Below are positions 19,632 through 64,000 of a stretch of DNA of 64,000 bases, piece by piece. Made by a program: the position numbers and the translations under genes. Where the stretch lies: assembly GCF_020911925.1 (NCBI RefSeq), contig NZ_CP087134.1:372001-436000 (forward strand), read 5' to 3'. The notes below the pieces were generated by a model, which saw only the letters and a program-made list of their open reading frames with translations, was not told the origin of the DNA and did not search any database. Every line of letters starts with the position of its first letter. Positions within the stretch are counted from its first letter, which is position 1. The stretch is from Flavobacterium cupriresistens. Its GTDB lineage: Bacteria; Bacteroidota; Bacteroidia; Flavobacteriales; Flavobacteriaceae.

Positions 19632-19684
19632 AGATAGAGATTATGAATTCAGGTCTTATCCTTCGATAATCGTATATTCTATCT
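19632..19684 (-). promoter_or_regulatory. Candidate structured RNA leader of rpsD
   Basis: In the rpsK-rpsD spacer AGATAGA (19632-19638) pairs with TCTATCT (19678-19684), and inside it GATTAT (19639-19644) pairs with ATAATC (19666-19671). A small AGG/CCT helix may close the inner loop. The structure ends 13 nt before the rpsD start codon. There is no T-run, so it is not a terminator. A role in S4 autoregulation is inference from position only. Confidence 0.4.
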
Positions 19685-57741: not shown

Positions 57742-59892
57742 TTATTTTATAATTGTCATTTCATCAATAATGTTTTTGGCACCTGCGTATTTGTCAATAA
57801 TCCAAAGTACATAACGAATATCTACGTTGATGGTTCTTTGTAATTTAGAGTCAAAAATAACATCTCCGGCCATAGCTTCAATGTTTCCGTCAAAAGCAAC
57901 ACCAATTAATTCTCCTTTTCCGTTAAGAACCGGTGAACCTGAATTCCCACCTGTAATATCATTATCCGTAAGGAAGTTTACTGGCATGTATCCTGCTTTA
58001 TCAGCATATTGTCCGTAATCTTTGGTTTTGTTTAATTCTAACAATCTTGCCGGTAAATCAAATTCCTGATCTCCTGCTTTGTACTTTTTCACCATACTTT
58101 CCATGGTAGTATAATTGTTGATTTTAGCATCGTTACGTTTGTCTTCCGGCAAAGCACGAACTTTTCCGTACGTCAATCTCAAAGTTGAATTGGCATCAGG
58201 GTATTGAATCGTATTTAATTTAGATTCTCTTAAACCTTCCACTAATTTTCTGTAAGCAATTGCAAAAGCCTCATCAGATTTTACTTGATCATCAGATTTA
58301 GCACGGTATTTTGTCAACAAGTCAGTAGAGATAATATATAAAGGATCGTGTACAATAGCCAATGGTTTTGGATCAGCCATAAACGCCACTATTTTTTCTT
58401 TAGAAGTAAAGTAACTTGTTTCAGTTGCTTTTGCAACGTCTGCTGTAAAATCACCATTATTCAATGATTTCATTTTAGCTACTTGTGGGGCTAAACCGTA
58501 TTCAGTTGCTTTAGCAGCGTATAAATTTAACTGTGCTGTTAATACCTCTTTTTCAAGTGGAGCATAAAAATCGCCATAAATGCCATCAATCATTGCGTTG
58601 ATCTTAGGTAACATTTCTGCTTTTTTAGCATCATTCTCGTTGTAGTAAGCAATCAAAGCATTTCCTAAATTTGCAGGTCCATTTGCATAACTTGAAGTAC
58701 GCATCAGTTGCGTTAAATAGTTATCATGAACTACTTTTACATTTGTACTTCTGTAATACTCATTAATAGTCGGAATTACATTCTCGTACTTTTCTTTATT
58801 AGCCGGCTTAGTTGCCCACTCATAAAACTTATCTTCTTGCTCTTCTTTAGTAGCTGCTGTTCCTGCTTTAGTCAAAGCATCAATCATTCCTTGACGGTTT
58901 TTCCAGTAATTAGCTGTAGACGCATATTTAGAAGCATACTGTAAACGAACAGTAGCATCTTTATCCATATACTTTTTCATTTGGTCCATTCCGGTCTTAG
59001 CACCTTCAACCCATGCAGGGTAAGCAAATTTTACATTTTGCTCAATTCCACCTGCCGGCATCCAACGGTTTGTTCTTCCCGGGTAACCCAAAATCATAGC
59101 AAAGTCATTTTCTTTAACTCCTTTAAGACTTATCGGTAAATAATGTTTAGGCTGTAAAGGCACATTATCTTTAGAATAAGTTGCAGGATTTCCGTTTTTG
59201 TCTGCGTACACTCTAAACATAGAGAAATCTCCAGTTTGACGCGGCCACTCCCAGTTGTCTGTATCTCCACCAAATTTACCAACACTTTCAGGAGGTGTAC
59301 CCACTAAACGTACATCAGTATAATCTTGGTAAACGAAATAGTAATATTCATTTCCTTGAAAGAAAGGACGAACAGAAACTGTATATTTTCCACCTTCATT
59401 ATTCTCCTTTTCAATCAAAGCGATCTCTTGTTGAATAATTTTGTTTCTTTCTGTTTCCGTCATTTTATCATCAACTTTAGACAATATTCTTTTCGAAACG
59501 TCATCCATACGAACGAAGAAACGAACGTATAATGATTTTGGTTTCATCTCGGCACTTTTTTCTTTTGCCCAAAAACCATCTTTCAAATAATTTTTTTCTG
59601 CAGACGAAAGTTCTGCAATAGCATTATAACCACAATGGTGATTGGTTAAAACCAAACCGCTTTTAGAAACGATTTCGGCTGTACAACCTCCGTTAAATTG
59701 TACAATAGCATCTTTCAAACTATGATTATTAATACTGTAAATCTCTTCGGCTGTTAATTGCAAGCCCATTTTTTCCATATCTCTATGGTTTAATCTTTCG
59801 ATAAACATCAAAAACCACATTCCTTCATCAGCTCTTACAGGAAAAGCCATTAGGCACATGGTCAAGTATAATCGAAAAATCAAAATTTCCAC
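57742..59892 (-). CDS. S46 family dipeptidyl-peptidase, predicted DPP7 type
   Basis: S46 enzymes are periplasmic serine peptidases that remove dipeptides from the N-termini of peptides. The 716-residue protein has the catalytic histidine in TNHHCGY (residue 85 or 86) and the catalytic serine in GNSGSPV (Ser651). Eighteen residues after the serine is Gly669 (AFDGN); in this family Gly here marks DPP7-type hydrophobic P1 preference, Arg marks DPP11. The signal peptide ends before ADEGMWF. The start is GTG at 59890-59892; there is no in-frame ATG or TTG upstream before a stop. See the duplicated start region at 59871-59914. Confidence 0.9.
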   Translation of the reverse strand: MEILIFRLYLTMCLMAFPVRADEGMWFLMFIERLNHRDMEKMGLQLTAEEIYSINNHSLKDAIVQFNGGCTAEIVSKSGLVLTNHHCGYNAIAELSSAEKNYLKDGFWAKEKSAEMKPKSLYVRFFVRMDDVSKRILSKVDDKMTETERNKIIQQEIALIEKENNEGGKYTVSVRPFFQGNEYYYFVYQDYTDVRLVGTPPESVGKFGGDTDNWEWPRQTGDFSMFRVYADKNGNPATYSKDNVPLQPKHYLPISLKGVKENDFAMILGYPGRTNRWMPAGGIEQNVKFAYPAWVEGAKTGMDQMKKYMDKDATVRLQYASKYASTANYWKNRQGMIDALTKAGTAATKEEQEDKFYEWATKPANKEKYENVIPTINEYYRSTNVKVVHDNYLTQLMRTSSYANGPANLGNALIAYYNENDAKKAEMLPKINAMIDGIYGDFYAPLEKEVLTAQLNLYAAKATEYGLAPQVAKMKSLNNGDFTADVAKATETSYFTSKEKIVAFMADPKPLAIVHDPLYIISTDLLTKYRAKSDDQVKSDEAFAIAYRKLVEGLRESKLNTIQYPDANSTLRLTYGKVRALPEDKRNDAKINNYTTMESMVKKYKAGDQEFDLPARLLELNKTKDYGQYADKAGYMPVNFLTDNDITGGNSGSPVLNGKGELIGVAFDGNIEAMAGDVIFDSKLQRTINVDIRYVLWIIDKYAGAKNIIDEMTIIK

Positions 59893-59914
59893 TTTGAAAA
59901 AACAAAATTTCCAT
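59871..59914 (-). repeat. Imperfect 22 bp tandem duplication at the S46 gene start
   Basis: The unit 59871-59892 and the unit 59893-59914 match at 18 of 22 positions, including an exact CAAAATTTCCA. The inner copy carries the GTG start (59890-59892); the outer copy carries ATG (59912-59914) at the same place. A 22 bp shift puts the ATG out of frame. Confidence 0.75.
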
Positions 59915-59957
59915 TTTTCAGACGTACATAGAAATTTTTAAACGTCATTTAAAAAGC

Positions 59958-60052
59958 AATTAAAGCCCCGATTGGGGCTTTTTTTTATGCTATCGAACAA
60001 TAGACATAGCATAATATTATCTATTGAGCTTTGCCCGACTACGTAGGTCTGA
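59958..60052 (-). ncRNA. Candidate small RNA, copy 1
   Basis: A promoter-like TATATTTG box (minus strand, 60058-60065) precedes about 95 nt that ends in a GC-rich hairpin (AAAGCCCC at 59962-59969 with GGGGCTTT at 59974-59981). Two helices interleave: 59985-59993 pairs with 60006-60014, and 59998-60004 pairs with 60020-60026, which predicts an H-type pseudoknot. A second copy with the same pairs lies at 60152-60246. The T-run after the hairpin is weak on this strand (three Ts) and better on the plus strand (eight Ts), so strand is not certain. No reading frame is conserved between the copies. Family unknown; Rfam Flavo-1 should be tested. Confidence 0.5.
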
Positions 60053-60151
60053 CTATGCAAATATACATAATTTTTTTTTGTGGTAAGTGGCTGTACTCGA
60101 ACCAAGCGCATTAGATTCTTTTTTTAGACAAATTGAGCTAATACGAGAATA

Positions 60152-60246
60152 AACAAAAAAAGCCCCAATTGGGGCTTTTTTATGCTATCGAACAATAGAT
60201 TAGCATAATGTTATTCTATTGAGCTTTGCCCGACCCGCAAGCCTGA
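60152..60246 (-). ncRNA. Candidate small RNA, copy 2
   Basis: This is a paralog of the element at 59958-60052. It has TATATTTG (60252-60259) 10 nt after the stop codon of the phage-side gene, then the same interleaved helices: 60180-60187 with 60201-60208, and 60193-60199 with 60215-60221. It ends in a perfect AAAAAAGCCCC/GGGGCTTTTTT hairpin (60156-60181) followed by T-rich sequence on both strands. Differences from copy 1 fall mostly outside the helices or keep pairing. Neither copy has a clear TTG -33 element. Confidence 0.5.
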
Positions 60247-60268
60247 CAATGCAAATATACGTAATATT

Positions 60269-60451
60269 TTATTTGTAAATTCCCTCGTATGCTATAACCG
60301 CATTAATAGTTCTAACAGACAAATAAAAATCAGTTGCAATACTTTCTATTACGGCATCAACCGTCCATTTTTTTTGCGCTTTCGTTTTCTTTTCAAAGCT
60401 AGTTCGTATGTCTTTATTTCTCCTTTTTATACGTTCTTGTTTACTCTCCAT
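60269..60451 (-). CDS. Small basic phage-associated protein, possible helix-turn-helix
   Basis: This 60-residue protein has a strongly basic N-terminal half (KQERIKRRNKDIR, KKTKAQKKW) and a C-terminal half that looks like a helix-turn-helix (VDAVIESIATDFYLSVRTI). I do not recognise a named family. It is 8 nt downstream of the tape-measure gene in the same direction and lies directly before the small RNA pair. A DNA-binding or late-gene role is only a guess. Confidence 0.6.
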   Translation of the reverse strand: MESKQERIKRRNKDIRTSFEKKTKAQKKWTVDAVIESIATDFYLSVRTINAVIAYEGIYK

Positions 60452-60459
60452 AAATTAAA

Positions 60460-62205
60460 TTAACTGGTTTGCATTTGGTTTACACTATTTACTGCTCTTA
60501 ATAATATTTCTTGCACCGTTTCGCCTAATCTTTCAATTCCTTTTTCGGTGTTTTCAACAAATATTTTTGTATCATCCTGTAGCTTATGGATAGTTACATT
60601 AATGGTTGTCATTTTAGAGCCTCCTGATACAATGTTATCGTCTTTTTCTCCTTTTCGCTTTTTCTTTTTGCCCGTATCATTCATCAAGTCAGCAAAAACT
60701 TTAGATTTCTCTTGTTTAAGATAATCAGGAGTAGTTTTTTTATCATCAGCGGTTTTTATTCCGACTTCTTTAGCCTTCATGTGAACACCATCATTATAAC
60801 CTTTGGAAAATGTTCGAGCCGCTTTTAGTCCATCGTCAAAGAGTTTCTTTTTTGAATCAACTCCCATTAAATCGCCTACGGCTTTTTTACCAATATCAAA
60901 AGCATTTTTGAAATCGCCTTTAAAAAATGCCATCAATGCGCTACCTATTCCTGTAATACCTGATAATAAATCGTGAAAGCGATTAATCACATAATCTTTA
61001 ATTGCAGTTCCAAAGCCTTTCAGTACTTCCCAAGTTCCCATTATGACACCCCGAAATCCCTCAAAGCGATTCCAACACGCCCAAACAATGGCAATCAAGC
61101 CCGCAAAGGCGATAACTGCCAATCCAATAGGGTTCATACTCATTACAAGGTTAAAGGCACTTTGAGCGGCTGTAGCTAACCAAAGCCGTGCCTCAAATAA
61201 AGCAAATTGAGCTGAAAACACCCAAAAACCTGCATTAGCCGCAACAAAAGAAATCCCTAATGTAGTAACCAAAGCTCCAAAGAAAAACATTAAAGGTTTT
61301 GCTTCAATAATCCATTTAACAACATCGGCTACAGCATGACCAAAAGGAATAATGCTTTCGCCTATTGCCGTACCAATATCAAATAAAGGTTTTATCCATT
61401 CTGCAAAAGCCATTCCAATTCTGCTTATTTTATTTTGAAATGTTCCTATCATAGTAGTCCATTTACCGCCCGCAGATTCAGCCATCTTTTTTGCCATATC
61501 ATGGTATCGCCCACCTTCCGAAGTTGCAAGCCTAAACGCTTCCTCAACCATCCCCGAAGATATAGCTCCCTGTTCCATTTTATCTTTTAATTTACTCATT
61601 GATATACCCGTGTTTTCGGATATAATTTGAAGTGGATTAAAACCTTGATTAATCATTTGTAAGGTATCCTGCCCCATCAAACGACCAGTAGCCATAACTT
61701 GTGAGTAAACGAGTGATAAACCGTTTAACTTTTCCTGATTACCCATTGCAACATCCCCGAGCATTTTCATATTACCCATTACTTTCTCCTGAGCAATACC
61801 AAAACCAAGCATTGTTTCAGCACCTTTAATAATTCCGTCATTACTGTAAGGCGTGGCATTAGCATATTCGTTAAGTTGCCCGAGCATATCCCGGGCTTTC
61901 CCGACGGAACCGAGCAAGACTTCAAATTTAACGTTCGTTTGCTCCATTTCCACCCCCATATTAAAAATAGCCTTGACTCCCGCAACGACACCAAGCGAAA
62001 TACCCAACGCTCCGACTAAGCCAATTACTGTTTTAAAGCCCGAACCCATAGAATTGAAAAAAGAGCTAGAAGAACTTTCGGTACTTCTAAAAGTACCGTT
62101 TAATCCTTGAACTCGATTATTAGTCATGCCAACACTCGCCGCTATTTGAGTAAGCGACGATGATGCCATGTTTTTCATTGATATAATAAATTCATATGCA
62201 TTCAT
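60460..62205 (-). CDS. Phage tape-measure protein, short
   Basis: Tape-measure proteins set tail length in siphoviruses and myoviruses. This 581-residue protein has the tape_meas N-terminal pattern: hydrophobic segment [21 protein letters not shown] (about 57-77), then [32 protein letters not shown] and [18 protein letters not shown]. More hydrophobic segments lie at about 295-400, followed by a charged C-terminus. Tape measures are often much longer, so the tail would be short or the protein truncated. It begins 5 nt after the capsid gene, which is unusual because connector and tail genes normally come between. Confidence 0.85.
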
Positions 62206-62210
62206 AAATC

Positions 62211-63089
62211 TTAAATTTTAGCAGAAATTATAGCACCAAGGGCTTTGTTTCTAATAGGCATAGCCAAAAACCTTTTATCAAAACCTACTATAGTAGCCCT
62301 TTGCTCTGGATCATTAATACGCTCGTACATATTTACACTACCGTCGCACTTCATTACTTCCTCAGAACTAAAAGAAAATGAGCCGAAAGTTGTGTTAGAA
62401 TCTGCTATCGCACCCCAAGGAAGTTTTGTTAACGTTGAAACATTATACTTTGGCGTTTTGGTATATTGCAAAATATTGAATCCTGCAAATCGGTTAGGTT
62501 GTCCGTTAACAAAGTCCGTAATATCTTTGAAAGATTTTAAGTCGAAAAGAATTAAATCCTCTAAATGATTTGGGTCAAGCACTAAATATCTGTTTTCAAA
62601 AGGAATATCTAATAAATCATATTTCTTTTTTAGTTTCAAAATATCCTCAGGAACTAATCTTTTAAATCCTTCTCCATTGTCACTTCCTGTAGTAATAAGA
62701 ATAGGAGTATCTACTGTATTACTAGCGGGAGCATAAGCGTGTGCCGCTTTTTGTCCTGTTGAAGATTTTAATGCGTTTCTATGTCCGTAAATAACGCTTT
62801 CTAATTTATCATAAGCCAGCTCTACCGTTTCAGGATTTCTAACTAAAGTGTTTTTAGTTTCGTAGAAATCCAGTTCAAGAGATATAGGCATGTCGGCTCT
62901 CTCAACTATCGGAATAGGATAAGTTGTATTATTAATTAAGACCTCGGGGTCAAAACCGCAATCAGCTAAATTGATTTTGTCGTTTTCTACGTATGCAGTC
63001 ATGTCTTTTGCATAATTTAAAAACGATGCCTCAGGGTAAAATTTTTCCATAATTTGGCTAGTCCAAACTTGTTTATTCAATGTACTCAT
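62211..63089 (-). CDS. Phage major capsid protein
   Basis: This 292-residue protein resembles major capsid proteins of Bacteroidota prophages: [20 protein letters not shown] at the N-terminus, then [20 protein letters not shown] and a long helical region with [19 protein letters not shown], and [20 protein letters not shown] near the C-terminus. No scaffold domain is seen within it. It follows the prohead protease after 19 nt and precedes the tape measure by 5 nt. Assignment rests on order and pattern. Confidence 0.75.
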
Positions 63090-63108: not shown

Positions 63109-64000
63109 TTAATTGTTATACTCTTCTTTAATTAGTTTGTTGTAAAGTTCTCGGTCGTCTTCAAGTTCTTTTGGAGCGTGTTTTCTATAATCTTGTAATG
63201 TCCATTCGCTTCGTGGCTTATCGGTAAGGTCGCTTAACTCTGTTTTTGTGCTTTTGTGACCCAAAACAACACTTTTTATTAAACTGTGGTTCGCTCGTGT
63301 AACGTCCTTATTGGTTGCTTCTGTAATAAGAGCTTGCAAATCTTTTTTTGTAGAAACAAAGTCGCCTTTGAAAGCCATCAACTGGACACGTTTTAAACTG
63401 GCGGGAATAATTTTTAGTTGAATTGCTAAACTTGTTAAATTTTCGGATTCCTCAGTCCTTTCATTTCCTAGTTCGTCAACCCGTTTTTTTAATTCCTCAA
63501 TTGCTGTGAAAATTTCATCATCCTTTGCATTACTTTTCAAATCCAACAGTTGAATAAGTTTAGTGTTCAAATCCGCTGGAGTTTTTAAGTACGTTCTACG
63601 GTATAGATTGTATTTTACGGTATTTTTTGATAACTCACTACTAACCCTAACCGCATTTGCATTTGACGGTATTGCAACGATTGAGCATTCAATAACGACT
63701 GATTTTTTAGCTACACCGTCGAGGGGTGGCTCTTCGGGAAATTCAACACCTAAAGAGGTAGCGTTAAGAAAACCGTTTTCAACTTTTTTCGCAATCTTAA
63801 TCGCCAACGGGTCATCCATATCAAAAACCGCATCAGCAAAAACTTGTGTACCTTTTACTGTTATGTTTTCCCACTTTCCAATAACGTCAAGTGCTTTATC
63901 GTGTTGATAAAACATTACTGGATTCTGTTTAAATCGGGTCAAATCCATTCCAGCGGTTAGAATTGAAAACCCGTAGCTATTTACACTTTCATCGTGTATT
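63109..64000 (-). CDS. Prohead protease (HK97/U35-like), cut at right edge
   Basis: The open frame runs past the right edge, so the gene starts outside the window; the ATG at 63946-63948 is probably internal, because the preceding in-frame sequence (IHDESVNSYGFSILTAG) matches the family. The protein has NPVMFYQHDKALDVIG, VKGTQVFADAVFDMDDPLA and GFLNATSLGVEF, typical of caudovirus head maturation proteases. The rest (about 140-297) is helical and may act as a scaffold. It is upstream of the capsid gene, the usual order. Confidence 0.82.
   Translation of the reverse strand, partial: IHDESVNSYGFSILTAGMDLTRFKQNPVMFYQHDKALDVIGKWENITVKGTQVFADAVFDMDDPLAIKIAKKVENGFLNATSLGVEFPEEPPLDGVAKKSVVIECSIVAIPSNANAVRVSSELSKNTVKYNLYRRTYLKTPADLNTKLIQLLDLKSNAKDDEIFTAIEELKKRVDELGNERTEESENLTSLAIQLKIIPASLKRVQLMAFKGDFVSTKKDLQALITEATNKDVTRANHSLIKSVVLGHKSTKTELSDLTDKPRSEWTLQDYRKHAPKELEDDRELYNKLIKEEYNN

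Follow-up and report, generated by a model that had tools for sequence, protein, structure and literature searches.

The window analysed here, the 64,000-nucleotide stretch at positions 372001-436000 of the 5.74-Mb chromosome of Flavobacterium cupriresistens (NZ_CP087134.1), carries towards its right-hand end a tandem pair of elements of about 100 nucleotides each (59958..60259, minus strand), which are 85-87% alike. A sequence-only reading of the window had taken them for small RNA-like elements with a pseudoknot, and they do have the make-up of small structured RNA genes, that is, a promoter box (TATATTTG), a structured body, a GCCCC/GGGGC terminator, and homologues with compensatory base changes. 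They are members of an RNA family with conserved hairpins that stands in a fixed place and orientation at the stop codon of genes for a MuF head protein ending in a CdiA_C-type toxin domain. The RNA is co-inherited with that domain, and toxin-less copies occur in satellite islands.

The -7 promoter box lies at 60252..60259 in copy 2 and at 60058..60065 in copy 1. In F. psychrophilum the sigma-A motif TAnnTTTG occupies -12 to -5 (accessible part of PMC9723704), a spacing that places the predicted +1 at 60247 and 60053, respectively, where in each copy a 5' hairpin begins (copy 2, 60228..60247, GUC-A-GGCU-UGCG-GGUC-G-GGC; copy 1, 60033..60053). This hairpin, which the sequence-only reading did not list, is backed by covariation and varies least of all parts of the RNA across the family, with four bases separating the box from the GU(C/U) start in all 24 rows of alignment A5. 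The second stem, also covarying and with exact arms, is helix 1 of the proposed pseudoknot (copy 2, 60193..60221, 60215-60221 pairing with 60193-60199; copy 1, 59998..60026, 60020-60026 pairing with 59998-60004). It interleaves with helix 2, again of exact arms (copy 2, 60180..60208, 60201-60208 pairing with 60180-60187, with one compensatory pair in five sequences; copy 1, 59985..60014, 60006-60014 pairing with 59985-59993). A predicted intrinsic terminator closes copy 2 (60156..60181), and a terminator with a short U tract closes copy 1 (59962..59981).

The segments described as complementary are exact reverse complements at all four coordinate pairs, and an interleaved exact arm pair (at least 8 and at least 7 bases, within 60 nt) arose in 4/5000 dinucleotide shuffles of copy 1 and 18/5000 of copy 2. 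Conservation is also not codon-like, as had been proposed, since the indels between the aligned copies are not multiples of three and no reading frame is kept between them. Fold z-scores are -3.3 and -3.9 for the minus strand and -2.6 and -4.9 for the plus strand, which folds too, partly via the palindromic terminator, so that folding alone gives no strand choice. The minus strand is favoured by pairs of the family, including some in the 5' hairpin, that are G-U on that strand only.

Membership of an established RNA family such as Flavo-1 (RF01705) found no backing, because Rfam 15 gave only sub-threshold matches at the window RNAs, with none at gathering score there or in 20 related loci; judged on these searches, the RNAs belong to a family absent from the Rfam library. 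Members were gathered by DNA patterns over viral contigs and a named genome set, and then with a covariance model, R1. The genome under study (G000) has four copies: two in the window, one in a second island and one in a Mu-like prophage. The covariance search proposed in the sequence-only reading thus recovered homologues, and in these both the 5' hairpin and the second stem show compensatory changes. Among 14 distinct sequences, 14/20 pairs are changed on both sides, amounting to 47 both-side-changed cells against a shuffled mean of 14.4 (0/500 shuffles as high; slid controls far lower), in a test whose structure was itself drawn from the same 14 sequences; in the 5' hairpin, 4/7 pairs are changed on both sides across 24 sequences. 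The family is rare among genomes: R1 matched 4/397 across the family Flavobacteriaceae, the G452 match being probably false, and 3/395 across the order (G000, G452 and G176), and a strict pattern matched 2/398 across the genus.

The evidence supports a pseudoknot for the window-type RNA, but not as a trait of the family as a whole. Helix 1 (CAATAGA/TCTATTG) covaries widely, and helix 2 (TTATGCTA/TAGCATAA) is found in five copies only, namely the window pair, island 2, G299 and G176, in which every cell of both helices is paired. The expected compensatory changes do occur in both helices, two in helix 1 and one in helix 2, all contributed by the single sequence G176; of 500 shuffles of the five copies, 8 reach that pair number and 52 reach the covariation score. 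In the phage copies and in the island on contig L133 a plain hairpin replaces the pseudoknot.

A readable MuF gene is present at 16/18 RNA loci. In each of the 16 it encodes a CdiA_C-like C-terminus and, running on the opposite strand, has its stop codon 4-31 nt within the RNA model. The other two loci are L132, where the contig stretch is cut, and the L133 island. The window itself contains no MuF gene. A protein profile of the CdiA_C part of MuF, A3, retrieved 13 viral loci, at all of which the RNA is convergent at the end of the domain; 12 were already known and L238 was new, and since L232-L235, with their similar scores, seem to be near copies of one another, the number of independent loci is below 13. 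In genomes A3 was found in 2/249 Flavobacterium, 3/4 selected genomes and 2/228 of the phylum, and at the A3 loci of G000, G113, G299 and G618 R1 detected the RNA in 4/4. A fifth and distant genome locus, G1135, has TATTTTTG, a UGCG-capped hairpin and a terminator on the reverse strand directly after the gene, and R1 scores 18.9 bits in this slot. Across 14 loci, with the MuF of L135 substituted for the cut L119, RNA identity correlates with CdiA_C identity (r=0.80) and not with identity of the MuF N-part (r=-0.23), which indicates that domain and RNA move as one cassette. At some loci a small helix-turn-helix-like gene lies beyond the RNA slot, and such a gene is also found beside toxin-less MuF (L248, L249, L252).

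Going by its domain model, the toxin domain appears nuclease-like, of the tRNase-like CdiA_C type. The best match of the model is the tRNA nuclease 4G6V, and PF04233 (MuF) and PF18451 occur together in L010 and L246. D, D and K residues are found at the spacing of the 4G6V catalytic residues in 10/14 loci and are shifted by one residue in two, the NPD motif is absent in L247 and L251 (2/14), and the aligned D, D, K columns are invariant in 9 sequences. A catalyst is thus likely in most of these domains.

We regard it as somewhat probable that the RNA provides immunity to this virion-borne nuclease and that the window copies serve a satellite as orphan antidotes. The same tie between RNA type and C-terminus would be predicted if the RNA were instead a cofactor of MuF, whose C-terminal domain would bind RNA for head assembly or bring it into the virion. 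Iyer et al. (PMC5512222, in its accessible part) propose that in phage Mu the PBECR domain of MuF, which is inactive, may bind RNA, but the retention of D, D and K in 10/14 CdiA_C domains speaks against pure RNA binding, and RNA copies stand without MuF in satellites and in genome G537, which makes a cofactor role unlikely. The convergent position, together with a palindromic second stem that may terminate transcription on both strands, would also suit a cis antisense or terminator element controlling muF or the following gene. We consider this very unlikely, as there is no muF beside the satellite and G537 copies for such an element to control, and the G-U pairs of the 5' hairpin exist on the minus strand only.

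MuF loci at large provide a control for the immunity reading. A profile of the MuF N-part, A4, returned 78 viral loci, 67 of them usable, and each was inspected for TAnnTTTG on the convergent strand in the slot at the MuF stop. The motif is in the slot at 29/46 loci with at least 80 aa after the N-part (28 without L300) and at 0/16 where MuF ends within 52 aa of it (Fisher P=4.5e-6), and at 1/5 in between. Sequences following the motif fold with a median z against shuffles of -4.58 (n=30), compared with 0.34 for the others (n=37). Of the nine loci in this set that A3 finds, R1 matches seven, all CdiA_C-like, at E <= 1.4e-5 (the exceptions being L292 and L293), and it gives weak matches (E 0.03-0.74) at five other loci; each of these matches lies at the expected slot and strand.

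The slot RNAs differ between toxin types. By C-terminus, the 29 motif loci comprise 10 CdiA_C-like (Pfam or A3), 5 PBECR2, 1 PBECR3, 3 LPD3, 9 with no name and the unscanned L300, and the 17 motif-less long loci comprise 2 ART/ADP-ribosyltransferase, 1 glutamine deamidase, 3 PBECR2, 1 PBECR3 and 10 with no name; several of these assignments come from matches that fall short of the curated cut-off, and for L255 and L258 the assignment follows that of the similar L254. At 9/17 of the motif-less long loci a convergent open reading frame (ORF) of at least 65 aa runs through the slot. The position thus appears to house an antidote, either protein or RNA, although the ORF counts are not clean. Other structured RNAs with TAnnTTTG follow other MuF C-termini at L254, L255, L258, L262, L256, L263, L264, L270 and L278, and likewise at L288, L302, L303, L308, L312, L313, L317, L318 and L323; Rfam has no match in 15/18 of these, the set searched being that without L255, L258 and L262.

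The succession of different RNAs in one slot beside other toxin types bears on a further alternative, that the RNA is a trans-acting regulator shared by satellite and phage, for example one that tunes late genes of the helper. Across the 5' hairpin of copy 2, 35 nt match the prophage copy at 94% identity, so that the RNA could pair with mRNA that the helper makes from the corresponding interval, yet such a role does not account for the change of RNA with toxin, and we hold it to be quite unlikely.

The window pair had been placed between a chromosomal S46 peptidase gene and a phage block, but the two elements are cargo of a mobile island, lying 95-392 bp inside its left end at 59867. This island 1 runs from 59867 to the end of the window at 64000 and on to window-equivalent 66826 (chromosome 431867-438826; 6,960 bp). 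It is flanked on both sides by CAAG, a 4-bp target duplication whose left copy is at 59863..59866, and it splits the signal peptide of the host S46 peptidase gene (57742..59892, minus strand; PF10459); the signal peptide is intact at the empty site of the relatives G004, G006 and G008 and is restored when the flanks are joined with one CAAG. The left terminus has two tandem repeats of 22 bp (59874..59917) that resemble transposase sites and may serve as such, and similar repeats lie at the left end of the prophage. Island 2 (4084711-4091737; 7,027 bp) shares the termini and is flanked by AAAG. Both islands have inserted at the start of a signal-peptide coding sequence, and in each case the end of the island provides a new in-frame start. 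At 4084830-4084953 island 2 keeps a degenerate copy-1 terminator and has, in the place of copy 1, an unrelated stretch of ~120 bp, perhaps another RNA type.

Upstream of the RNAs island 1 has, all on the minus strand, a 60-aa gene (60269..60451; helix-turn-helix-like by eye, no Pfam or PHROG match) that is 44% identical to a 72-aa prophage gene in the same position and has no counterpart among the listed ORFs of island 2; a tape measure protein (60460..62205; PF20155), 81% identical to that of the prophage; a major head protein (62211..63089; phrog_267), 33% identical to that of the prophage; and a head-region gene (63109..63948, its 305-aa ORF continuing past the window) matching phrog_11321 (annotated 'unknown') and phrog_617 (major head). 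Small ORFs and a repressor with a CI-repressor domain (PF07022) complete the cargo, together with the counterpart of a protease (PF00574) found in island 2, which likewise has a repressor, small ORFs, a major head protein and a tape measure. The prophage is Mu-like, 34 kb long (~5.070-5.104 Mb), with Portal_Mu and Phage_Mu_F and with CGTT at both edges, and its termini resemble those of both islands. Further RNA-bearing islands with like genes occur in G299 (L225), whose termini were not found with the patterns used, and on contig L133, with no tape measure match. The G176 copy lies near a gene 40% like the 60-aa gene. The islands thus combine termini like those of the helper, their own regulators, few structural genes and, in ORF lists judged by eye, no transposase or integrase, as is characteristic of phage satellites, and we read them as satellites of such a Mu-like phage, which would mobilise them. 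Elsewhere in the window, an S4-Flavobacteria ribosomal protein leader (RF03141) lies at 19639-19671.

Transcription of the RNA and its neutralisation of the toxin are both predicted here from sequence. A promoter active in the lysogen would produce an RNA with the 5' hairpin at its very start, and this RNA would bind and block the nuclease as an active-site ligand or as a tRNA decoy, and the lysogen would survive. A satellite entering cells in particles that carry MuF-CdiA_C would need its own antidote, and satellites and some chromosomes would come to hold orphan RNA copies. If the 7-kb satellite, with its phage-like termini and 81% identical tape measure, travels in such particles, this would explain the orphans of the window. 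The principle may be a general one, although we rate it at slightly less than an even chance: many unrelated structured RNAs would act as immunity to Bacteroidota MuF toxins, with a separate RNA for every type of nuclease (CdiA_C, PBECR2, PBECR3, LPD3 and unnamed C-termini) and with expression driven by a TAnnTTTG promoter that faces the toxin gene, orphans being kept by satellites and chromosomes, and any satellite travelling in its helper's toxin-loaded particles would have to carry one.

Several observations weigh against RNA immunity. Co-inheritance can arise from physical linkage alone, and the loci used to build A3 were themselves RNA-bearing. The known immunities of contact-dependent inhibition (CDI) are, to our knowledge, proteins. 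R1 finds nothing at E <= 1 at the weak CdiA_C loci L292 and L293, both of which have the motif, and the G176 copy lacks a TAnnTTTG box before its hairpin. Convergent ORFs of at least 65 aa also run through the slot at 4/29 motif loci and 3/16 toxin-less loci. Three loci with tails that match PBECR2, L299, L307 and L322 (two of the matches being below cut-off), showed neither the motif nor a recognisable RNA, and L319 has no motif; these four loci stand against a strict rule. Finally, G537 has two tandem RNA copies (L144 8369-8803) and no A3 match, with ~110 bp between the copies and the degenerate repeat that opens a type II CRISPR array.

The G537 pair may provide orphan immunity from within a defence locus or may point to a link with Cas9, and in the latter case the RNA would be an anti-CRISPR or Cas9-associated RNA by which phages occupy or regulate type II Cas9. 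Each G537 copy adjoins a degenerate repeat-like stretch at the array end distal to cas2 (Cas1 and Cas2 being Pfam assignments), phages are described as using RNA anti-CRISPRs (accessible parts of PMC10651486 and PMC11656645), and Cas9 is present in all four tested genomes with strong RNA matches and absent in G452, a count over five genomes that do not include G113 and G176. Nonetheless, G537 has a canonical tracrRNA-like gene upstream of cas9, the tracrRNA-like genes at 11/13 other long-Cas9 loci are not homologous to the RNA, and only G537 was matched when R1 was run at E <= 0.1 on 17 CRISPR loci. As the RNA lacks an anti-repeat and its tie to CdiA_C would be left unexplained, a Cas9-related function is highly improbable. 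Identity with a tracrRNA was likewise rejected, there being by eye no anti-repeat in the window or phage copies, and the repeat-like stretch of G537 lying upstream of the -7 box. The F. cupriresistens genome has a CRISPR locus of its own (L149, 5366500-5375500) with a 1129-aa Cas9 and ~45 repeats.

If RNA immunity to MuF-CdiA_C is borne out, an RNA antidote to a phage-head toxin would join the fields of RNA antitoxins and polymorphic toxins, immunity to the latter being described as protein-based in the accessible parts of the literature cited here. It would also account for the non-coding elements conserved where MuF genes end, give satellites a reason to carry such RNA genes and make small, naturally occurring RNAs available as inhibitors of tRNA-cutting nucleases. 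Among the matches listed in a search of open-access literature, with many subscription papers and preprints outside its scope, none describes RNA immunity to a MuF toxin.

The closest parallels are the type III toxin-antitoxin systems, of which ToxIN, CptIN and TenpIN are families. There, too, a structured RNA neutralises a nuclease toxin, as is predicted here, and one form of the present RNA is also predicted to fold into a pseudoknot. Toxin-less RNA mimics are known as phage pseudo-ToxI (accessible part of PMC5086642), and toxin-less copies occur here. In type III systems, however, a repeat array and a terminator lie upstream of the toxin on one transcript, whereas the present RNA has its own predicted promoter on the opposite strand, and its toxin, unlike those of type III, is a domain of a virion protein with a PD-(D/E)XK-like fold. 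The type III array arrangement was accordingly rejected, since the RNA, encoded on the opposite strand, comes after the toxin gene and is single-copy in the phages read. RNA anti-CRISPRs (Racrs, PMC10651486) are likewise small phage RNAs, but according to the accessible part of PMC11656645 they mimic CRISPR repeats, and the present RNA has neither repeat nor anti-repeat. CdiA-CT/CdiI of B. pseudomallei 1026b (4G6V) has the fold modelled for the present toxin domain, with the D, D, K spacing shared in most loci, but there immunity is a protein and delivery is by CdiA, rather than the RNA and MuF proposed here. The MuF polymorphic toxins of Jamet et al. (2017, PMC5576092) have the same MuF head protein with a variable C-terminal toxin and an antidote gene directly downstream, and the toxins' entry with infection is discussed there. 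In the accessible part of that paper small ORFs follow 89.4% of 191 MuF toxin genes, more often than they follow short muf genes, and no RNA is named, whereas in the cassettes described here the slot is that of an RNA gene.
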